A stretch of 38,184 bases of DNA, taken from the IMG/VR virus record IMGVR_UViG_3300034108_001117, positions 1-38,184 of that record, one strand, 5' to 3'. Below the pieces are notes generated by a model. It worked only from the letters and a program-made list of their open reading frames with translations, had not been told where the DNA came from and searched no databases. Origin of the DNA: a virus. Below, piece by piece: positions 5,136-38,184 of this stretch; position 1 is the stretch's first letter; the number at the start of each line of letters is the position of its first letter. The position numbers and the translations under genes are program-made.

Positions 5136-5396
5136 ATGCGTTCAGTTATCCTCCTGCAATCACTCGCCGGTAGCACTTTCTGCCACAATGCTGGCACGCT
5201 CCTCGAGTGTGATTCAGTCGAAGCCGAACGCCTTATCGAAGCAGGCATCGCACGAGAACTACTCTCAGGCGAACCGACAGAACTACAAAAAGCAACAAAA
5301 GGACGCATGGTTCCTGAGCCGGTGGGCGCTAGCCCCGGTTCCCCCGAACCGCAGGTTCCACCCCCCGAACAACCCAAACGCCGCCGCCGCTCCTGA
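5136..5396 (+). CDS. Small head-region protein with repeat-derived C-terminus
   Basis: 86 residues. The N-terminal half (MRSVILLQSLAGSTFCHNAG...VEAERLIEAGIARELL) resembles short phage head-operon proteins that place a hydrophobic core before an EAxRLIxAGxA helix; no function is established. The C-terminal half is Pro- and Arg-rich, is partly encoded by a family B repeat (5315-5340), and ends RRRRS at the edge of the family C array. Repeat insertion probably extended or replaced the original C-terminus. Confidence 0.6.
   Translation: MRSVILLQSLAGSTFCHNAGTLLECDSVEAERLIEAGIARELLSGEPTELQKATKGRMVPEPVGASPGSPEPQVPPPEQPKRRRRS
5315..5340. repeat. Family B dispersed repeat, copy 1
   Basis: Contains CCGGTGGGCGCTAGCCCCGG inside a TGAGC...TT frame. 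The core GGGC-GCTA-GCCC can form a hairpin. It lies inside the coding sequence of the preceding small gene. Copies 2 and 3 are at 6439 and 9556. Confidence 0.8.
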
Positions 5397-5525
5397 TCCC
5401 AACCCGACGCGTAAGCGAGGGACAGCAATCCCAACCCGACGCGTAAGCGAGGGACGACCAATCCCAACCCGACGCGTAAGCGAGGGACGACCAATCCCAA
5501 CCCGACGCGTAAGCGAGGGACAGCA
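5396..5525. repeat. Family C tandem array, four units of 32-33 bp
   Basis: Units start at 5396, 5428, 5461 and 5494. Each contains AACCCGACGCGTAAGCGAGG followed by GA and a short variable tail (CAGCA or CGACCA). The array starts at the stop codon of the 86-residue gene and fills the gap before the next gene. A single further copy lies at 12378. The units are contiguous with no spacers, so this is not a CRISPR. The opposite-strand reading gives SLAYASGW, a string I recall from planctomycete genomes. Confidence 0.85.
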
Positions 5526-10073: not shown

Positions 10074-11492
10074 ATGAGTGTGATCGAAAACATCGATGTC
10101 GTAATGGGCGCCCAGACTGCCCAACTGGATGCTGCCGTAGCCAAAGAGATCAAACAACTCCAAAAGCTAGAGACCGTTGCCTCTGGTTTCTCAAACTCAG
10201 CCAGTGCTCTTGGGTCCTTCGCCGCTGGATTCTTCACGCTAACCGCTGCGGCTTCCGGTGCAGCATTCGCCGTATCGAAAGTCTCGGAGGCATGGAAGCA
10301 ACTCGACGAATCGGCAGACGTTGGCGCACGTCTTGGCATGTCGTTCGCGGACCTAAACACCACACGCGAATCTATCGGCCGATCGACTGGGATGGATGCG
10401 GGGTCCATCGATGCGACGATGCAAAAGATGAACCTAAACCTAGCCAACGCAGCGGCCGGCAGTAATGCAGAGCTCGCGAATCGGTTAGCAATGCTCGGTC
10501 TAGAAGCGGGGCAACTGATAAAGGCTGGACCGCTCCAGGCGATCAAAGAAATCTCCGCAGCCACAAAAGACCTGAGCCCATCTGACCAAATGATCGTCGC
10601 GTACGAAACGTTTGGGAAGCAAGGCGTCGCGATGGTGCAGGCGTTGCGCGATGGCCCCGAAGCGATCGCCGAAATGGAAGCGAAGTTGACCGCATCGGGT
10701 TCCAACCTTTCAGACGCACAGATCGCACAGATCGGAGCCGCTCAAGACGCCTGGGACGATGCGTTGATGTTAGTAACAGGGCTTTTCAGAACGGTCGCAG
10801 CGGAAAGCGCACCTCTCGTTGAATTGTTTTCAGAGTGGGCGCAAGGGACCGGAGAGAGCTTTAGTGGTTGGGGCGAGTCTCTCGAGTTTGTGGTTGATAC
10901 TGCTGCGTACTTTTCTGGTGTGATGTATGACGCTTACGAAGTCATCAATCTTCAATACACGCTGCTATCCAAAATGGCGACGATGGATTTTTCTGGCGCT
11001 GGGGAGAGTCTGCGATCTGCGATGGACCTTTCGACAGGTGATCGCAATGTCATGGCACTAGCCGAGAAACGACAAGCAGCCGAAGAGAAAGCCGCTAAAG
11101 ATGCAGCCGACAGGCGATCCAACGCCGGTATGGAGAGCGAGATCGAAGCCTATGAACGAGCACAAGCGGAAAAGAAACGACTAGAGGAAGAGGCCGCACG
11201 CGAAGAACAGGAAAAACAAAAACAGGCCGAAAAAGAAAGACAAGACCTTTTGAAGGAAGCCGAGTCAATACAGAAACGAATCGATTCTATGGGCACCCAA
11301 CCAGGGAAAACCGGCGCAGTCTCAGCCCAAGAGGGATCAGTCGAAGCGTACAAACTCCTTCTCCAACGTGACAACGAGCAGAAGCAAATAGCCGAGGAAG
11401 CCAAGCAACAAACCATCCTCCAGCAACGAATGGCGGATCTTCTCGAGCAAGCGAACATGAAACCAACCGTACAATTGGCGAGGGCTCGATAG
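10074..11492 (+). CDS. Tail tape measure protein (short)
   Basis: 472 residues. Helical almost throughout, with a hydrophobic Ala/Gly/Phe-rich segment (about 42-70, SALGSFAAGFFTLTAAASGA), a central region with MSFADLNTTRESIGRSTGMD and AYETFGKQGVAMVQALRDG typical of phage tape measures, and a long charged coiled coil (about 345-410, rich in K, E and Q). It sets tail length and later passes through the tube. By the usual 0.15 nm per residue this predicts a tail of roughly 70 nm. It follows the chaperone pair as expected and is the largest gene of the tail core. Confidence 0.8.
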   Translation: MSVIENIDVVMGAQTAQLDAAVAKEIKQLQKLETVASGFSNSASALGSFAAGFFTLTAAASGAAFAVSKVSEAWKQLDESADVGARLGMSFADLNTTRESIGRSTGMDAGSIDATMQKMNLNLANAAAGSNAELANRLAMLGLEAGQLIKAGPLQAIKEISAATKDLSPSDQMIVAYETFGKQGVAMVQALRDGPEAIAEMEAKLTASGSNLSDAQIAQIGAAQDAWDDALMLVTGLFRTVAAESAPLVELFSEWAQGTGESFSGWGESLEFVVDTAAYFSGVMYDAYEVINLQYTLLSKMATMDFSGAGESLRSAMDLSTGDRNVMALAEKRQAAEEKAAKDAADRRSNAGMESEIEAYERAQAEKKRLEEEAAREEQEKQKQAEKERQDLLKEAESIQKRIDSMGTQPGKTGAVSAQEGSVEAYKLLLQRDNEQKQIAEEAKQQTILQQRMADLLEQANMKPTVQLARAR

Positions 11493-12353
11493 ATGGCAAC
11501 CGTACTCATTGGAGAGAAAGCCGAACGGAGCGGAACACTCACCGCGACCGATTCGGGGTTTAACTACGTCGTTCCTCGAACTTACCTAGTTCAGTCTGAC
11601 ATTAACGACGACGGCGAGCTCAATGTTCTTTTGACTTCCGGCCTGCCCATTATTGGATTGTCAGGGCTAGTCGCATTCCCCGAGGCGATTTGCCGAAGTC
11701 TGCGACCTAGACAGAATCCAAAGCAACCCAAGCTATGGGAAGTGCAAGCGGAGTTTTCGACCGCTCCACTCAACCAGTCGATCCCAGCCGGTGGAGGTGG
11801 GTCTCCTAACCCCGACCCAACAACATGGATACCAATCTATAAAGGCTCTATCGAATACTACGATGAGGTTATTCACGAAGACTTTTCAACACCAGTTCGG
11901 CAGTATGTAAACTCGGCTGGGTGTAAGTTTCCAGAACCGCTGGTCGTTAAGCGTCCAATCATCGTGTTTGACTTCTATCAGTATGAATCGGCATCAACCA
12001 CAGACAAGACGATTGCAGAGAGAAACGATTGTATCAACAATATGACGGTAACTCGTGGCTCGGTAAACTACGACGAGTACACGCTAAAGTGTACGGTAAC
12101 GGATTTCGAGCGAGGCTTCTACTACGGCTACGGGGCGGTTAAGGTGCATTATCGGGTAGCCTACAAACCAGCCAAGTGGCTCAATAAACCTCTAGATATG
12201 GGCTACGAATACAAGAACACCGCAGGAGAATTGCAATCTTCCCCGAAACTCGTGACGCTCAATTCAGATGGAACGATGAGGAGCCCATTCGGTACGATCA
12301 GCTCGAAAGAATTCAAACCACATAAACCAATCTCCTTTGCATTCCTAAGATAG
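11493..12353 (+). CDS. Hypothetical distal tail protein
   Basis: 286 residues, ATG immediately after the tape measure stop. Beta-rich with many aromatic residues (IPIYKGSIEYYDEVIHEDFS, FDFYQYESAS, VHYRVAYKPAKWLN), including a glycine/proline linker near residue 100. The position after the tape measure is where distal tail or hub proteins are encoded. I do not recognise the family. SSPKLVTLNSDGTM near the end suggests a beta-hairpin. A tail-tip role is inferred from position only. Confidence 0.6.
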   Translation: MATVLIGEKAERSGTLTATDSGFNYVVPRTYLVQSDINDDGELNVLLTSGLPIIGLSGLVAFPEAICRSLRPRQNPKQPKLWEVQAEFSTAPLNQSIPAGGGGSPNPDPTTWIPIYKGSIEYYDEVIHEDFSTPVRQYVNSAGCKFPEPLVVKRPIIVFDFYQYESASTTDKTIAERNDCINNMTVTRGSVNYDEYTLKCTVTDFERGFYYGYGAVKVHYRVAYKPAKWLNKPLDMGYEYKNTAGELQSSPKLVTLNSDGTMRSPFGTISSKEFKPHKPISFAFLR

Positions 12354-12377: not shown

Positions 12378-12404
12378 ATCCCAACCCGACGCGTAAGCGA
12401 GGGA
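12378..12404. repeat. Family C repeat, single copy
   Basis: AACCCGACGCGTAAGCGAGG preceded by ATCCC, matching the units of the 5396-5525 array. It fills most of the 61-nt gap between two tail genes. Confidence 0.85.
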
Positions 12405-12414
12405 TAACCGACCA

Positions 12415-12741
12415 ATGGCAGAACAAAACGAATCCGAAGAGATCGTCGGCTTCAACCGCCCCGACGCGATGAACTTGCTGGGATCTCTACCCAACGCCGG
12501 TAGTGAACTAGTCACACCGCAGCATCGCCCCCCGATGGAGAACGTCCTCGGACGCACAGGCGCGGGAGGCATCGCCGCCAACAGTGCCGGCCAAGTCACC
12601 CTGTACTATACCACGTCCACCAACTGGACGCTAGGCACTGAAGTATGGGACGTCTTCACCCGAGGCGCAGCGATCCCAGCCAACACCGATTGTCTAGTCG
12701 TCCCCGTCAACGGTCGTTGGTTAGCGTTGGGGATCTGCTAG
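12415..12741 (+). CDS. Hypothetical tail-region protein
   Basis: 108 residues. Acidic N-terminus, a GSELVTPQHRPPMENVLGRT linker, then a beta-rich C-terminus (GQVTLYYTTSTNWTLG, TDCLVVPVNGRWLALG) that looks like a small SH3- or OB-like barrel. No family recognised. It is tightly coupled to the next gene, whose ATG directly follows this stop. Likely a minor tail-tip component. Confidence 0.5.
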   Translation: MAEQNESEEIVGFNRPDAMNLLGSLPNAGSELVTPQHRPPMENVLGRTGAGGIAANSAGQVTLYYTTSTNWTLGTEVWDVFTRGAAIPANTDCLVVPVNGRWLALGIC

Positions 12742-13845
12742 ATGGGATCACTCGGCGTTTGTTGTCGTGAAGCGTGCATTGAGCCACCAGAGATCCAAAT
12801 CACCGGACTTACTTCCTCTTCGGCATGGACATTGCCTAACCCAACGTTCTGTTGTTGGCAGAAAACATTCTTCTACAACTCTTGGCCAATCTCGCCGACG
12901 AAATACACAAGCCCAACGATTTCTGATTTGGCTATAGAGTTCAAAGGGAGACGTACAATAGAGGCAACTGTTGGAACCGTCTCCGGCCCCGATTGTATAG
13001 ATCAAGAAGACATAGATTTAGGATACATAGAACGCTGGAGAATCTACGAAGACGCTTACAGAAAGTACGCATACATCTCTCCGCTTTCTAATCAAGTAGT
13101 CGTTAAAGCACATCTGGTAACGATCATAGAATCCGGTTTGCCTGTGGTTTATTGGGCGTTTAGCATTCAAGAGGAATTCACATCGACGTATGGTTTTGAT
13201 CGAAAATTTAGAAATTACGTTGATAACATCTTGGTTGCCATTGAATGCGCGACATGGCGAAACGGTCTTGCAAACGTCAATGACCCAACCTATCTATCAA
13301 GACCAACAAGCACTTGGGTGGAGCAGACTCCAATTGCTTCAGGTGCGGTAGACGGTTCGATTACTTTTGGTTTAGTTCGATTATCTACCCTAGAAGCGTT
13401 GCCACCTGGTGATTGGAACGAACAGGTGGTATCCACGACAGACGCCAATACTCCCGCGGTTTCTGGATGTTTAACAGGAGTTCAAGACCCGTTTTTGTTG
13501 GCGTATTCCATTTCACCAAGTCCAGCGTGCAGTCAAATAGAGGTTTCTACCGCGGCTTGCGGAGAGCAGATTATCACAACAGGAAACGTACTTTTCGATC
13601 CCAATTTTTTAACTGCGCAACTCATCGGAAGATACGATTTTGCAGATCCTGTGTTTGTAGATCATCTGCGTTTGAACGCTGGCTGCTGTATTGACACGGG
13701 CACTGTGTGTAATTTCAACCCTAGCACGTCAACTTTTAATTGGTCTGCTCGTGCTGAAGTAATAACATCGACATGCACTAGCACGTACTCCCCGGTGGAT
13801 ATGATAGTACATCCATCGTACACCGTTCGGTTTCGACTGCCATGA
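12742..13845 (+). CDS. Cysteine-rich structural protein, tail tip or fibre
   Basis: 367 residues with 14 cysteines, including CC pairs at about residues 7-8 and 37-38 and another near 313 (NAGCCIDTGTVC). The rest is beta-rich (VVVKAHLVTIIESGLPVVYW, DGSITFGLVRLSTL). This is many more cysteines than its structural neighbours have, and the spacing suggests disulfides rather than one metal site. It overlaps the next gene, an ERV/ALR-like thiol oxidase, by ATGA, so the two are coupled. Codon use is more AT-rich than in the capsid genes, like the fibre genes, suggesting a different origin. A surface tail protein held together by disulfides is my inference. Confidence 0.55.
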   Translation: MGSLGVCCREACIEPPEIQITGLTSSSAWTLPNPTFCCWQKTFFYNSWPISPTKYTSPTISDLAIEFKGRRTIEATVGTVSGPDCIDQEDIDLGYIERWRIYEDAYRKYAYISPLSNQVVVKAHLVTIIESGLPVVYWAFSIQEEFTSTYGFDRKFRNYVDNILVAIECATWRNGLANVNDPTYLSRPTSTWVEQTPIASGAVDGSITFGLVRLSTLEALPPGDWNEQVVSTTDANTPAVSGCLTGVQDPFLLAYSISPSPACSQIEVSTAACGEQIITTGNVLFDPNFLTAQLIGRYDFADPVFVDHLRLNAGCCIDTGTVCNFNPSTSTFNWSARAEVITSTCTSTYSPVDMIVHPSYTVRFRLP

Positions 13846-14207
13846 TTGCTCGGGAGGTAGTCTACGTTCCCAGCGACCAGCCACGGACGCAAGAAACTAG
13901 ACACATTCCAGGCGTTGCGTATCACACAGAGATAACGCAGCGACAACGCGACCATTGGGCGAAACTCCACACAACCCTAATGGATGCGGTCAGCTTTGAA
14001 GCGTGGGTAGCCGCTATCCCCGGTTGCGAAACATGCCGACGAGATTTTCGCGAGTTGATGAAATCTAATCCGCCCCGTTTCGACGATTGGTTCCGCTGGA
14101 CTTGGGAGGTACACAACGAAGTCAATCGAAAAATTGGCAAGCCCGTACTAACCTGGTCCGAAGCCTGCCACCTTTGGAAAAATGTCTCTGATCCAGCCGA
14201 ACAATGA
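13842..14207 (+). CDS. ERV/ALR-like sulfhydryl oxidase-type protein
   Basis: 121 residues. The segments W39-A-K-L-H43, C62-E-T-C65, DFRELMKSNPP, then W and H91-N-E-V-N-R-K97 followed by IGKP match in order the flavin-binding helices and active site of ERV1/ALR sulfhydryl oxidases (W..LH, CxxC, HNxVNxxLGKP). That family makes disulfides de novo with FAD and oxygen and is known from eukaryotes and large DNA viruses. The start overlaps the stop of the 14-cysteine protein. Activity is inferred; a shuttle CxxC outside the core is not visible, although C109 is present. A non-catalytic binding relative is possible. It is the last gene of the late arc, ending in a family A repeat. Confidence 0.65.
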   Translation: MIAREVVYVPSDQPRTQETRHIPGVAYHTEITQRQRDHWAKLHTTLMDAVSFEAWVAAIPGCETCRRDFRELMKSNPPRFDDWFRWTWEVHNEVNRKIGKPVLTWSEACHLWKNVSDPAEQ

Positions 14208-14228
14208 CAGGCTGGAAGCCTATCCCAC
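14205..14228. repeat. Family A repeat, copy 7 (inverted), between convergent arms
   Basis: Reverse-strand copy of the consensus, reading GTGGGATAGGCTTCCAGCCT on the - strand. The TGA at 14205-14207 ends the + strand late arc, and the repeat overlaps the end of the - strand early arc (stop at 14220). Its palindromic arms may help stop transcription from both sides. Confidence 0.85.
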
Positions 14229-27007: not shown

Positions 27008-27895
27008 ATGTCGACCCAAACCACAAAAGTAACGCTTGCCCTTGCGAGTATCGTTGCACTTTGTTTCTTTCACGCGCTAAGCGTAGCGACCGTGAACCGC
27101 GTTATTGTTCCGTCAATCGAAGAAGCCTTCGGAATCGAGCCCGAGCGACAACCGCAGGCAGGCGGCCTCAACTTCGACAACGCACGGAACGCGATAGGGG
27201 TCACCAACACACTACCCGTCAACTCCTCCGCACTCAACGAGCCCAAGCGACAAACCGGACCGGTGCCATACTGCCCGCCATGTGACGCAAACCCGCCGAC
27301 ACAACAACCCCGCGCACCGATCCCACCTCCTGCCGCAGCACCCACCAGCGGCAAGTACAACGTAAGTGTTTTCGTTCTCCATAACGACCCAGCATCGAAG
27401 ACCGTCCTAAGTTGGTTCGACGATCCATCGCTGACCAAGTTCAAAACCTCCACGAATTACCACGTTTACACCCGCGACAACCCGCTTTACCTGGGAAGAT
27501 TCGCTTCAACCGTACCCGTCTCCAGCTTTCCCGCAGTGCTATACACCGACCCAAGCGGCGGCTACATCTACAGCTTCGACAAATCGAGCGTCCCAAGCAG
27601 CCTCGCTTCGATGAAAACCGACATACAATCAGCCTACAACACCCATAAACAAGTCGCTGCACAGGTGCAAAACACCGTCGAAAGTGCCACAAACGCCGAT
27701 TGTCCAGACGGTTTTTGCCCACCACAGAGCACTCCCGGTGGGTTTTTAGATCGCTTTCGACCTAAACCAGACACGAATCCCATCGAAGGGATACTCCGAA
27801 CCATCACACGACCAGGCGAGACGCTTCTCCAATACGCGTTTATCGGACTTCTCGTGTTCGTAATCGTCCTATTGTTGAAACGCAGAGGTGCCTAA
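27008..27895 (+). CDS. Membrane-anchored protein with thioredoxin-like domain
   Basis: 295 residues. An N-terminal membrane or signal segment (9-28), a proline-rich linker holding YCPPC (about 88-92), a thioredoxin-like domain (about 117-210) with strand VSVFVLHNDP, the helix SKTVLSWFDDP and a cis-proline type SFPAVLYTDPSGG, and a C-terminal membrane helix (about 273-291) with a basic end. The domain lacks a CxxC at the usual place, so redox activity is uncertain. Flanked by other exported proteins. Known pathway unclear; I infer an envelope-located role. Confidence 0.6.
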   Translation: MSTQTTKVTLALASIVALCFFHALSVATVNRVIVPSIEEAFGIEPERQPQAGGLNFDNARNAIGVTNTLPVNSSALNEPKRQTGPVPYCPPCDANPPTQQPRAPIPPPAAAPTSGKYNVSVFVLHNDPASKTVLSWFDDPSLTKFKTSTNYHVYTRDNPLYLGRFASTVPVSSFPAVLYTDPSGGYIYSFDKSSVPSSLASMKTDIQSAYNTHKQVAAQVQNTVESATNADCPDGFCPPQSTPGGFLDRFRPKPDTNPIEGILRTITRPGETLLQYAFIGLLVFVIVLLLKRRGA

Positions 27896-33570: not shown

Positions 33571-34248
33571 ATGACACGCCCAATCCATCGCCGCTTCGCC
33601 ACGCTCCACGCATCGAACGCCACAAGCCGATTAATAGTACAGCAACGCAACGCCACCAACACCAGCCGCGTCATCCGTGGCTATGGTGCTGTGTACTACG
33701 ACCAACGCGAAAAGGGTTCCGAGTATTGGCTCTGGGACGATATCGTCGAACGCATCAAACCCGGTGCATTCGATCGAATCCTCGCCGAGAATCAAGACGT
33801 CCGAGCCCTCTTTAACCACGACCCAAACCAAGTGCTAGGGCGAACCGTCTCAGGTACGCTTCGACTCTCCTCGGATGCGGTCGGGCTTTACTACGAGGCC
33901 GACGAATCCCCGAACGATCCGACATGGTTAAGCGTCGCAGAAAAGATCAATCGAGGCGATGTCTCAGGCAGTTCGTTCGGATTCATTCCGTCCATCACGC
34001 AATGGGAATCTGTCAAGGAAGAGAACCGATCCTACGAAGTTCGATGGATAGTCGAGATGAGTATGGTTTTCGACGTTGGCCCGGTCACCTACCCAGCCTA
34101 CGAGAGTGCCTCCTCATCCCGATCCATCAGCCCCGACGAACGCACGCAGCTCCTAACAGAACGCAACGCATTCTATCGCAACCGCGATTCCTCTTCCGTC
34201 GAGGTGCGATTGAAAACACTGAAAACTAACGGGGTGCATGTTGCGTAG
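33571..34248 (+). CDS. Prohead protease, HK97 family
   Basis: 225 residues. RGYGAVYYDQREKG, ERIKPGAFDRIL, ALFNHDPNQVLGRT with catalytic H83, and VSGSSFGF with S134/S135 are the motifs of caudoviral prohead proteases, herpesvirus-assemblin-like Ser-His enzymes that cut the capsid delta domain. Portal then protease is canonical; the expected capsid gene does not follow but lies 7 kb further along the circle. It overlaps the tailspike gene by 11 nt. Confidence 0.92.
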   Translation: MTRPIHRRFATLHASNATSRLIVQQRNATNTSRVIRGYGAVYYDQREKGSEYWLWDDIVERIKPGAFDRILAENQDVRALFNHDPNQVLGRTVSGTLRLSSDAVGLYYEADESPNDPTWLSVAEKINRGDVSGSSFGFIPSITQWESVKEENRSYEVRWIVEMSMVFDVGPVTYPAYESASSSRSISPDERTQLLTERNAFYRNRDSSSVEVRLKTLKTNGVHVA

Positions 34249-36460
34249 TATCTTCGTTTCTGACACGGATGGCTTATTGTCTTTCGCGCGTAATCAAACT
34301 CTGACCGCACCGCAGAAGACGCAAGCAAAACACAATATAGGCATACCGGAAACTTCCTTATCGGGCTTCACTTGGATTGTCGGCCCATCGTCCGGTCTGG
34401 TTATGCAAGTGACCGGAAATCGAAACATTATTCTGCACGGAGGAGAAGGCCAAGTATCTATCAGGGGTGGGGCGGGAGGGTGGATTACTGGACTTCAGTT
34501 TCGAGGGAATAACGAAACAGTTCTAGGTTGGTTTGGAGCTACTGGGAATGCTTCTGACCTAAACAGCTTGTTTGTCGGAAAATCTTGGGACGATTCAATA
34601 GTCGATTACTATATCACCCATGCGACTCTGCCCGGCAACTCTACCGTTCACAATGGGCCAGTTTATTTCGACGATGACAAATCGGCGTCTTCTGGGATTC
34701 CGATAACGCTAAAAGCGTTTGGGGCAGTCGGTGACGGGACTACGGATGACACAGCAGCGGTGGTGGCATTCTTTGCCGAGGCAGCTTCTACAGGTCGGTC
34801 TTGGTATGTAAACCCAGGAACTTACCTAGTAAACCATAACGCTGCGATTACTATCAAGACAAGTGGCTCATGCGACGGACTGTTTAAGATACCAAAAGCA
34901 AACACTACTTGCTGGTTCGAAGTAGCACGGGACGCAGCAGGATCGACACTATCGACATCTGGCTGGGGAGCTTTGACTAGAGGCAATACGACTGTCGGAG
35001 CCACAAACGCGGCAGGGAAATACCTTTTTGTTATTTCAACAGAAATCGTATCCAACCGCAATGGATATGTAACACCTTACTATAAGCAAGAATTTATTCG
35101 GTGCGACCAAAGCGGAAACATGACTTCAGCTCCGGTCAACACCTACGTTAGCTACGGAACTGTAACCGTAACGGCCCATACTCCTTCAGTACCGATTCAG
35201 ATTGACCGTTTTAGAGTTTTGCGATCAGGAGCGGGTCCTGTAGGTGCAAGAGGAAGTATTGTTGTCTTTCGTGACAACGTAACGATGAATCAAGCGGAAG
35301 TTCGAAACGAAACGCCATCGACTCCGTTAGACTTTGCAATTGAAGTCGGTTATTGTGCGGACGTGACGTTTAATCGTCCTGTTGTGTATGGATGCCAAAG
35401 TGCCGGTCTAGGTTACGGAATTATAGCTACGGCAACAATAGGGTTGACGATCAACGATGCCACGATGGTATCTTGCCGAAGAGGGATGTCGGGTGCTTAT
35501 AATGTTGACTTAACTATACACAGTGGAAACTGGCAAGATGGCATAGACGATCACTGGGGCAACCGAATGACTATCAATGATGCAAATATCTATTGCATCT
35601 CAAATGGTAGTGCTGTTTCGTATGCTGGATACGATATTTCCATTAACAACGTCGCCACGTTCGGAGGCAGAAACTTACTAGGAATCCGTATTGATACTCC
35701 GTCTCTAGGTGGAGTCGTGTCGATAAAAAATTCCAAGGTGCAATCAGCAGATGCCAGCACAAGCTACTATCTGTTTGGATTCACTTCGGACAATGGAACA
35801 GGAGCAATTTCGCCAGCCTTCACCGTCAAGCCTTTCTTGCCGGATGTGGTGGTCATCGAAGACGCTCAACTCAACGTTGCTGTGGCATACGCAACGATAG
35901 CTAGACTAGGCACGTTGGCAGCGCCGCATACAAACTGGGGATCGGTTGTGGTGCGAGGGAATATCATCTCTAACGTGATGGTGTTTGGCATCTTGGCGGA
36001 CAAGAACTCGACCTACCAAGAAGATAGAACAGCTACATTGCAAGTAGACGAGTTAGATTGCTTAGCGGGTTCTGCGATCTACGTGAATGCCGCCGATGCT
36101 ACAGCGACGCGAGGGTATAAATGCCGAGTGAATAGAATCACGGGTGATGTGCGGTACTGCGGATTCGGAGTAAGTCAGATGGAAATCGCCAATAGCCGAA
36201 TTGCAAACATGACTCAAGATGCTGCGAACGCTTGGGGAAACACACTAACAACCGTGAGCGATTCAATCTTCACAGGCGGAGCAATTGGAGCTAACTTCCG
36301 TAACCTGGCGTTTTTCAATTGCACTTTCAATGGCACTATAACGCAGTTTCCTTACGATGGCGTCACGAACTATGCAACGCTAATCGGCAACACTAGAACC
36401 GTAGCACAGGCCAACATGCCAACGGACATTCGGACCAACATTGTTTCACCATATTTGTAA
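34238..36460 (+). CDS. Tailspike-like protein with pectate-lyase-type beta-helix
   Basis: 740 residues. The N-terminus has LTAPQKTQAKHNIGI, a fibre attachment-type motif, then a small domain with SIRGGAGGWITGLQFRG. At 160-175 AFGAVGDGTTDDTAAV is the start signature of pectate lyase-superfamily beta-helices in tailspikes. The following 400 residues show short repeated strands (ITINDATMVSCRRGMSG, LTIHSGNWQDGIDDHWGNR, ISINNVATFGGRNLLG) as in a right-handed beta-helix. It probably binds or cleaves a surface glycan. Codon use is more AT-rich than in the protease gene it overlaps, consistent with exchange of the receptor-binding part. Confidence 0.85.
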   Translation: MLRSIFVSDTDGLLSFARNQTLTAPQKTQAKHNIGIPETSLSGFTWIVGPSSGLVMQVTGNRNIILHGGEGQVSIRGGAGGWITGLQFRGNNETVLGWFGATGNASDLNSLFVGKSWDDSIVDYYITHATLPGNSTVHNGPVYFDDDKSASSGIPITLKAFGAVGDGTTDDTAAVVAFFAEAASTGRSWYVNPGTYLVNHNAAITIKTSGSCDGLFKIPKANTTCWFEVARDAAGSTLSTSGWGALTRGNTTVGATNAAGKYLFVISTEIVSNRNGYVTPYYKQEFIRCDQSGNMTSAPVNTYVSYGTVTVTAHTPSVPIQIDRFRVLRSGAGPVGARGSIVVFRDNVTMNQAEVRNETPSTPLDFAIEVGYCADVTFNRPVVYGCQSAGLGYGIIATATIGLTINDATMVSCRRGMSGAYNVDLTIHSGNWQDGIDDHWGNRMTINDANIYCISNGSAVSYAGYDISINNVATFGGRNLLGIRIDTPSLGGVVSIKNSKVQSADASTSYYLFGFTSDNGTGAISPAFTVKPFLPDVVVIEDAQLNVAVAYATIARLGTLAAPHTNWGSVVVRGNIISNVMVFGILADKNSTYQEDRTATLQVDELDCLAGSAIYVNAADATATRGYKCRVNRITGDVRYCGFGVSQMEIANSRIANMTQDAANAWGNTLTTVSDSIFTGGAIGANFRNLAFFNCTFNGTITQFPYDGVTNYATLIGNTRTVAQANMPTDIRTNIVSPYL

Positions 36461-36463
36461 CCG

Positions 36464-37216
36464 ATGCCAACAGTAACCTATACAAACAGCATACCCGGAA
36501 CGATCATCGATTGTTTCCCGCTATCCGCTGCGCTCGTCGACTGGGCGACGCTCAAGGTCCGTCTAACCGAAGGGACCGGCGCGAACGTTGGTAGGTGGAC
36601 CGGCAATCTAGGATACGGTAACTGGGCAGTGTTCGAGGGCGGATCGACTCCAGCGAACTTTGCCGCAAGTGTTGGGACGTTCTACGTCGAAAACCCTGGC
36701 GTGAGTCTCGCATCTTCCGACGACTCCGACGCAGACGAACTAGTCGCGGCGATCGATAACGATTTTGAGTTTTCGCGAACCATTCTAAACTTGAACGGCG
36801 ATCCGATCGCACTTCCTGCGTGCTACTTCGTTCTATGCGATGAAAACCAAAAGCTGATCCAAACACTCTCCCCAACCATCTCGGGCGGCAATTTCTCCGT
36901 GACGGTCCCTCGAGTCTACACACTTCGAGAACGTACCGTCTATTGGTCTCTACGCGCTACGTCTGATGCGAATACGCGATACGACAGCGGCCGGATCCGT
37001 TTCGATTACGCCGCATCCGAAACCGCCCCCCAAGGCCCAGTGAGCTCGACCTACGTACCACGCTGGGGAGTCCCTTTAGGTGGATCTGCAAACCAAATCT
37101 TGACAAAAGTCGATAGCGTAGATTTTAACACGCGATGGGGCGCACGAATCACATCCGGCACGGCTCCACCATCAGGCGGCGACGACGGCGACATCTATTT
37201 ACAACACTCCCCCTAA
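36464..37216 (+). CDS. Baseplate/fibre protein with modular C-terminal tip
   Basis: 250 residues. N-terminal beta domain (VTYTNSIPGTIIDCFPLSAA, WATLKVRLTEGTGANV), a central beta domain (DPIALPACYFVLCDENQKLI, TLSPTISGGNFSVTVPRVYT), and a C-terminal module GVPLGGSANQILTKVDSVDF followed by TSGTAPPSGGDDGDIYLQ. That last module (g.gqvL.k.s..df.t.W ... g.P....GdiYl) is a common tip of phage fibres and short tail proteins. Starts just after the spike stop. Structural role inferred. Confidence 0.6.
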   Translation: MPTVTYTNSIPGTIIDCFPLSAALVDWATLKVRLTEGTGANVGRWTGNLGYGNWAVFEGGSTPANFAASVGTFYVENPGVSLASSDDSDADELVAAIDNDFEFSRTILNLNGDPIALPACYFVLCDENQKLIQTLSPTISGGNFSVTVPRVYTLRERTVYWSLRATSDANTRYDSGRIRFDYAASETAPQGPVSSTYVPRWGVPLGGSANQILTKVDSVDFNTRWGARITSGTAPPSGGDDGDIYLQHSP

Positions 37217-37227
37217 AGGAAAAAAGA

Positions 37228-37644
37228 ATGGCGATTCAATTTAATGTTGCGACACGCAACGCAAGGCTTGACACAATCGAATCGACGAACGGTACGTCCT
37301 GTTCGCTGGAAATTCGAAGTGGAACGAAACCTGGTACTTGTGCTACTGCGACTTCAGGTGGTGCGGTACTTGCAACGATCGATCTTCCATCAAACTGGAT
37401 GGACCCCGCCAATGCCGGTGCGAAAGCTATTGCAGGCACTTGGCAAGATTTGTCGGCAGATTCTACTGGAACAGCATCGTTCTTTCGTGTTTACAACTCG
37501 CAGTCAACCAAGAACGAAACGACTTGCTTCCTCCAAGGTGACGTAGCAGTGTCGGGAAGTGATATGAACGTTTCTTCTGTATCTTTCACGACAGGTCAAT
37601 CGTTCACGGTCAATACGTTTACCCTGACAGACGGCAACGCTTAA
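37228..37644 (+). CDS. Virion structural protein
   Basis: 138 residues from the ATG at 37228 with AAAGGA upstream; the frame is open 31 codons further, but that is the shadow of the previous gene. MAIQFNVATRNARLDTIEST, then LEIRSGTKPGTCATATSGGA, LATIDLPSNWMDPA, GTASFFRVYNSQS, TCFLQGDVAVSGSDM follow a family I recall from many phage tails (N...RNarLdaIe...g.sa.L.i.sG..p). Function not known in detail; a small minor tail protein. Confidence 0.65.
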   Translation: MAIQFNVATRNARLDTIESTNGTSCSLEIRSGTKPGTCATATSGGAVLATIDLPSNWMDPANAGAKAIAGTWQDLSADSTGTASFFRVYNSQSTKNETTCFLQGDVAVSGSDMNVSSVSFTTGQSFTVNTFTLTDGNA

Positions 37645-37646
37645 AC

Positions 37647-38184
37647 ATGCTGCTGACATCCACTAGCGATAAAATCCGATTAGTCACTTCCGTAGCTGGT
37701 GATGTTCGCGTGCAAGCTAGCTACGTGGACCTCTCTGGTAGTACGGTTACACCTGGACGGCTTAACAGTTCTATCAGCACAGCTACGACGACTGATATAG
37801 TCGCAAGCCCTGCGAGTAGCACGCAACGAAAAATAAAGTACGTCTCCATTTGGAACGACTCTAGCAGTTCAGCCAATTCGGTTACAGTGCAACACACCGA
37901 CGGGACGACAGTCGTTGATATTTATGTCGTCAGTCTGCCAAGCCAATCGGGTTTGACCTACGTCGATGGGCAAGGCTGGACTGTAATCGGCAACTCGCGG
38001 CCTACAAACATTCAAACCTTTTCCGCAAGTGGCACATGGAACAAGCCGACCAGCTTTAACCCTCGCGTTGTGATGGTTCGCGTCTGGGGTGCAGGTGGCG
38101 GCGGTGGCGGAGGTTCTTCGCTGGCAACTGCGACCGTTACCAAGGGCGGCGGTGGCGGCGGTGGGGGCTGCTTTGTTGAGCGCA
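37647..38184 (+). CDS. Glycine-rich tail fibre-like protein, N-terminal part (continues at 1)
   Basis: The first 179 codons of a 410-residue protein that continues at base 1. The N-terminal 120 residues (LTSTSDKIRLVTSVAGDVRV, then QASYVDLSGSTV, RKIKYVSIWNDSSSSANSVT and GLTYVDGQGWTVI) are a virion protein domain found in several phages. Then FSASGTWNKPT and VVMVRVWGAGGGGGGG begin the glycine-rich region, a recurrent fibre-tip pattern (F..sGtW..P ... v..wGaGGgG). ATG two bases after the previous stop. The frame ends one base short at the window edge and joins bases 1-2 in frame. Confidence 0.85.
   Translation, partial: MLLTSTSDKIRLVTSVAGDVRVQASYVDLSGSTVTPGRLNSSISTATTTDIVASPASSTQRKIKYVSIWNDSSSSANSVTVQHTDGTTVVDIYVVSLPSQSGLTYVDGQGWTVIGNSRPTNIQTFSASGTWNKPTSFNPRVVMVRVWGAGGGGGGGSSLATATVTKGGGGGGGGCFVER

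Follow-up and report, generated by a model that had tools for sequence, protein, structure and literature searches.

A predicted ERV/ALR-family sulfhydryl oxidase encoded beside cysteine-rich genes in uncultured tailed phages and Pirellulaceae prophages

Described ERV systems and the locus studied

The closest described systems are the oxidases encoded by large eukaryotic DNA viruses. In vaccinia virus, E10R acts together with A2.5L and G4L to make the disulfides of L1R (PMC1318495), and the baculovirus oxidase BSOX/Ac92 serves virion disulfides in a reducing compartment (PMC11654684). The latter source, a structural survey published in 2024, names large and giant DNA viruses as the only other eukaryotic viruses with homologues of the baculovirus ERV-like virion oxidase. 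As for bacteria, members of the same Pfam family as cellular ALR/Erv1 (PF04777) are recorded in Pirellula, Rhizobiales, cyanobacteria, and other groups (PMC10598087). The accessible part of that paper gives this as a taxonomic fact, with no mention there of a prophage location or of pairing with a cysteine-rich virion gene. Reports of an ERV oxidase in tailed phages, or of its pairing with a cysteine-rich virion gene, were not found in the literature outside subscription.

The stretch of DNA analysed here (the window) is an IMG/VR virus record of 38,184 bases. It encodes a 121-residue protein (13842-14207, + strand) which, like African swine fever virus (ASFV) pB119L (3gwl) and vaccinia E10R, is virus-encoded and consists of a single ERV domain. 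Unlike these two, however, it comes from a tailed phage of a bacterium, its gene is paired with one cysteine-rich gene, and no A2.5L- or G4L-like partner was identified for it. Cellular ALR/Erv1 shares with the window protein the order and spacing of motifs, most FAD-contact residues, and the fold, whereas the window protein has neither an N- nor a C-terminal shuttle disulfide, lacks the structural CX16C disulfide, and is not mitochondrial. BSOX resembles it in the role proposed here on the basis of gene pairing, but carries an extra, inactivated ERV domain, while the phage protein has a single one. The bacterial proteins of PMC10598087 fall into the same Pfam family, and Pirellula is also the host lineage to which the window is linked.

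Taken together, we consider it likely that the small protein is a phage-encoded ERV thiol oxidase that introduces disulfides into a tail or adhesion protein that is exposed and is made in the cytoplasm. Because the pairing of ERV and cysteine-rich genes recurs in all 22 loci examined, it is probable that these tailed phages, like poxviruses and baculoviruses, form disulfide bonds by themselves.

Head and tail genes in the window include those for terminase, portal, S78 protease, HK97-type capsid, head-tail connectors, major tail protein, and tape measure, and an integrase gene is also present. The module of interest is a tail module, since the tail length tape measure protein (10074-11492, +; phrog_9483, E = 2.4e-23) fixes its identity, and the ERV/cysteine-rich pair forms its end. 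Next to the tape measure lies a 286-aa tail-module protein (11493-12353, +), an anchor family that is kept beside the pair in relatives according to alignment and is matched by profile in 33 of the 199 Pirellulaceae genomes. It is followed by a 108-aa protein (12415-12741, +), the stop codon of which abuts the ATG of the cysteine-rich gene; many relatives have a small gene of similar size in its place. Regarding the host, a 28-base repeat with four copies in the window was sought in a genome collection holding one genome per species, where its sole matches are six contigs from two Pirellula MAGs. This confinement points to a Pirellulaceae host, and the virus is taken to be one of freshwater bacteria of the Pirellula type.

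Sequence and predicted fold of the 121-residue protein

According to both sequence matches and the predicted structure, the 121-residue protein is a member of the ERV family. It matches Pfam PF04777 (Evr1_Alr) with 49.1 bits (E = 7.3e-13, curated cut-off 27.6), and in a phmmer search of the PDB the best 14 of 16 matches are ERV/ALR proteins, with human ALR at E = 6.9e-6. Among solved structures, those closest in sequence are human ALR, plant and yeast Erv1, and ASFV pB119L. An earlier note, made from the letters alone, had described an ATGA overlap between the two genes and a set of motifs in the manner of ERV1/ALR oxidases. The ATG of the 121-residue gene does overlap the stop of the cysteine-rich gene, and all the motifs are present (W39-x-x-L42-H43, C62-E-T-C65, H91-N-E-V-N-R-K97, and G99-K-P). 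The resemblance is a real one and not due to chance, because the PF04777 E-value, the phmmer matches in the PDB, and the persistence of the motifs in relatives all support it.

The CxxC motif (Cys62-Glu-Thr-Cys65; 14025-14036, +) is presumed to be the flavin-proximal redox pair, and its second cysteine is invariant in 20 aligned ERV copies. The HNEVNRK-x-GKP segment (14112-14144, +) presumably corresponds to the FAD-binding helix 4 and the following loop, and its HN and VN residues are nearly invariant in relatives. In yeast Erv1, 13 residues carry the FAD-binding energy (PMC4721541). When these 13 positions were mapped by hand using the residue list of that study, 8 proved to be identical in the 121-residue protein (R36, W39, C65, F69, H91, V94, K100, and W112), and differences were seen at yeast Erv1 G91, Y128, C159, F174, and R182.

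As for the remaining cysteines, the CX16C disulfide is known to stabilise the folding of Erv1, the core of the family being the fold, cofactor binding, and the active-site cysteines (PMC3509050). This disulfide of the cellular members is absent in the 121-residue protein, which has W88 and W105 at the respective positions; across the phage set W88 is invariant and position 105 is occupied by Trp, Tyr, or Phe. No shuttle disulfide is recognisable in the 121-residue sequence, the only further cysteine being C109, and compact viral ERVs often lack one (PMC3509050).

An AlphaFold model of the protein, built from 11 phage sequences, has a pLDDT of about 90 across residues 31-110 and contains five predicted helices (25-44, 49-57, 63-75, 83-98, and a short one at 105-111). 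The best 26 PDB fold matches of this model consist entirely of sulfhydryl oxidases (ERV/ALR/Erv2/QSOX), with probabilities of 0.98-1.00 for the first 24 and ASFV pB119L (3gwl) at the top; the TM-scores are modest, at 0.4-0.5 (0.31-0.52 to the query over the 26 matches). Searching a viral structure library returned giant-virus and ASFV sulfhydryl oxidases as the named leading matches. The fold is accordingly predicted to be an ERV-type helical bundle.

On the favoured reading, we infer FAD binding, oxidase activity, substrate identity, virion location, and the electron acceptor as follows. Coupled translation of the ERV protein right after the cysteine-rich one would place the oxidase beside its substrate, and the compact 121-residue oxidase would bind FAD. 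Substrate thiols would reduce the Cys62-Cys65 disulfide, the Cys62/Cys65 pair would then reduce FAD, and reduced FAD would be reoxidised by O2 or another acceptor. In this manner the neighbouring 14-cysteine protein would acquire disulfides with both proteins still in the bacterial cytoplasm. As substrate one may think of an exposed virion protein of a tailed Pirellulaceae phage, for instance one of the tail tip or of adhesion; folded and disulfide-locked, this protein would join the virion, and the disulfides would stabilise it outside the cell.

Active-site variants and domain fusions in relatives

The set of ERV loci (n = 22) consists of the window, 10 further uncultured phage groups from viral contig scans, and 11 Pirellulaceae prophages. 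Of the prophage loci, 10 came from a profile search of 199 Pirellulaceae genomes, 6 of which were positive, and the eleventh from a further search. Two later viral contig scans reported only copies of known groups and provirus copies of genome G540.

According to the active-site motif, 14 copies are of the CxxC type, including that of the window, and 8 are of the CxC type (L010, L023, L024, L028, L048, L051, L052, and L054). As for motif conservation in homologues, on which the earlier note had made its reading depend, the second cysteine, WxxLH, and HNxVN are nearly invariant, whereas CxxC gives way to CxC in the 8 copies listed. In L054 the HN is missing as well, and some copies may thus be inactive or different. 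We make no claim on the direction of change between CxxC and CxC, because the ERV-domain tree is mostly unresolved; the best tree has at least 3 changes for CxC, with a single origin still possible.

Several copies are part of longer proteins. The ERV domain is fused N-terminally to GT2 in L049 (6336-7553) and L050 (8130-9341), and the fusion region of L047 (9068-10390) gives sub-threshold matches to phosphoribosyltransferase and HAD families. Long C-terminal extensions without a Pfam match, which we read as glycosyltransferase-like, are found in L012 (7001-8071), L048, and L052. Zinc-ribbon-like extensions at the N-terminus occur in L010, L028, and L049-L051. The fusions to glycosyltransferases, the CxC forms, and the aromatic residues replacing the structural disulfide are new beyond the earlier note.

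Since the ERV domain is fused to GT2 and to other C-terminal regions, a second explanation stays alive, although we regard it as unlikely. It holds that the ERV-like domain serves for docking or tailoring: by binding the cysteine-rich protein it would let a linked enzyme (often a glycosyltransferase) modify that protein, redox activity being secondary or lost in some lineages. The CxC motif in 8 of the 22 copies would suit such a role, as would the genes, glycosyltransferase-like by our reading, that fill the same slot in ERV-less prophages. However, most copies, the window's too, are stand-alone, and the FAD-contact residues and flavin-proximal cysteine are largely kept in fused, stand-alone, CxxC, and CxC forms alike. 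Moreover, docking alone leaves the cysteine richness of every partner unexplained.

Cysteine-rich partners and wider distribution

The proposed oxidase substrate in the window is a 367-aa protein (12742-13845, +). It contains exactly 14 cysteines, as the earlier note had counted, and the contrast with its neighbours noticed there is confirmed by upstream proteins having 0 cysteines in 472 residues (tape measure), 4 in 286, and 2 in 108, as read from the identical genes in L011. The same note had called this protein beta-rich, which was not confirmed, the AlphaFold model from a two-sequence alignment having a mean pLDDT of 29.5. Because that model is uninformative, no claim is made on cysteine pairing or beta content. 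The protein has no match in Pfam, PHROG, or NCBIfam, and its L012 homologue keeps 13 of the 14 cysteines at 65% identity of non-cysteine residues.

A cysteine-rich partner (3.8-7.3% Cys) accompanies all 22 ERV genes, directly upstream of 20 of them; in L009 and L021 a small gene lies in between. Twenty loci (window excluded; loci not all independent, L055/L056 and L008/L020 being close) contain 194 non-overlapping ORFs with a length of 150 aa or more, of which exactly 20 have at least 11 cysteines and at least 3% Cys, and these are exactly the 20 ERV partners, one per locus. Compared by BLAST at E 1e-3, the partners separate into 10 clusters that show no similarity to one another, and short CC/CCC motifs recur at the N-termini of many. 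In 3 prophage loci (L049, L050, and L053) the pair is found at a second genome position, between the protease and capsid genes and not after the tape measure. With unrelated partner clusters and two genome positions, the constant feature is thus the cysteine richness of the partner, not one conserved gene block. Of 21 loci compared for gene spacing, 20 have a possible ERV start codon at an offset of -22 to +2 bases from the stop codon before it, and in 12 of those 20 the overlap is of 4 bases or 1 base. In the best-sampled partner family cysteines are kept at 91-96%, compared with 39-44% for other residues. The number of cysteines in a partner is often odd, which means that not all of them are in intrachain disulfides. 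The proposal that the phage carries its own disulfide-forming factor for a virion protein is supported by the fold, the homologue motifs (CxC in 8 of 22), and co-occurrence in 22 of 22 loci; on these three points the earlier note had named outcomes that would speak against it, and none of those outcomes was obtained.

The relation holds in one direction. ERV-less Pirellulaceae prophages with cysteine-rich tail-module proteins exist, and hence an ERV gene predicts a cysteine-rich partner, not the reverse; the notion that every cysteine-rich tail protein has an ERV was rejected because of such prophages. The variety of extra genes after the last tail gene in related prophages agrees with the idea that the oxidase acts elsewhere (on thiols of the host, on further phage proteins, or on the redox state of the cell under infection), its cysteine-rich neighbour sharing an insertion hotspot. 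We find this quite improbable, however, as the pair stays together at the second genome position and each partner is the most cysteine-rich large ORF of its locus, even though the partners are unrelated. The richest ORF also has a higher median cysteine content with an ERV (5.1%) than in 13 ERV-less tail modules (3.4%; Mann-Whitney p 7e-5, loci not fully independent). That partner cysteines bind metal (Zn or Fe-S), the small protein being an ERV-fold metal or chaperone factor, is hardly credible: some ERV relatives do have CxC/CxxC motifs and zinc-ribbon-like N-terminal extensions, and many partners N-terminal CC and CCC motifs, but in the window the partner lacks CxxC and contains just 3 His, the small protein keeps FAD-contact residues, and the low His (1.1%) and Lys (2.0%) content of partners would suit disulfide-rich exterior proteins better than metal proteins.

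The phage-encoded thiol oxidase remains the preferred reading, and a broader version of it can be put forward tentatively, as possible but rather doubtful. The ERV genes would then belong to a dedicated virion-oxidation module of tailed phages, a diversified lineage (CxC forms, glycosyltransferase fusions) that travels with unrelated cysteine-rich adhesins and brings about their maturation within the cytoplasm of Planctomycetota. If ERV oxidases do occur in tailed phages, disulfide-stabilised virions from a reducing cytoplasm would have arisen by way of the same enzyme fold in another part of the virus world, and part of the scattered bacterial PF04777 genes would be explained as prophage genes. 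A bacterial oxidase would also be available together with its natural substrate, and CxC flavin-linked oxidases would pose a question that can be tested.

As for wider distribution, searches of 50,697 phage records, PHROGs, cultured phages, and plasmids gave no ERV relative, nor did the viral ERV alignment find one in the first scan of genome contigs. A weak tblastn match in Stenotrophomonas phage Stm18 (E 0.4) was rejected as chance, running antisense across the spanin/endolysin genes. PF04777 and a wide ERV alignment gave no match in 392 Planctomycetota genomes; given 6 positive genomes among 199 Pirellulaceae, ERV appears, within the collections searched, to be rare and concentrated in one family.

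Further observations concern the window as a whole. Two kinds of short repeat, ATCCCAACCCGACGCGTAAGCGAGGGAC (as four tandem copies) and GACAGGCTGGAAGCCTATCCCAC, are interspersed at 5396-5520 and 12378-12404; 14206-14228, and outside the window ATCCCAACCCGACGCGTAAGCGAGGGAC is seen in the genome collection only in the two Pirellula MAGs, i.e., as host-type repeats within a phage. A 740-aa pectate-lyase-like tail spike (34238-36460) directly follows the head protease, so that the protease-capsid gap holds a tail spike in the window and the ERV/cysteine-rich pair in L049, L050, and L053. No terminal repeat was found at the record ends. These ends (1-695 and 37135-38184), when joined, form an in-frame Gly-rich fibre-like ORF of 438 residues, which suggests a circular or permuted genome cut within a repetitive gene. 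A 295-aa protein (27008-27895) with a CPPC motif, a C-terminal hydrophobic segment, and no Pfam match is possibly thioredoxin-like and could be a second redox factor.

Among the prophages, the single-contig Pirellulaceae genome G492 has four ERV loci (L054, L055, L056, and L131), each beside a cysteine-rich gene. In an ERV-less prophage (L088:3790-4696) the same slot is taken by a protein with CCC and poly-Ser, followed by a 176-aa protein with 12 cysteines and no Pfam match, possibly another pair of a cysteine-rich protein and its partner.
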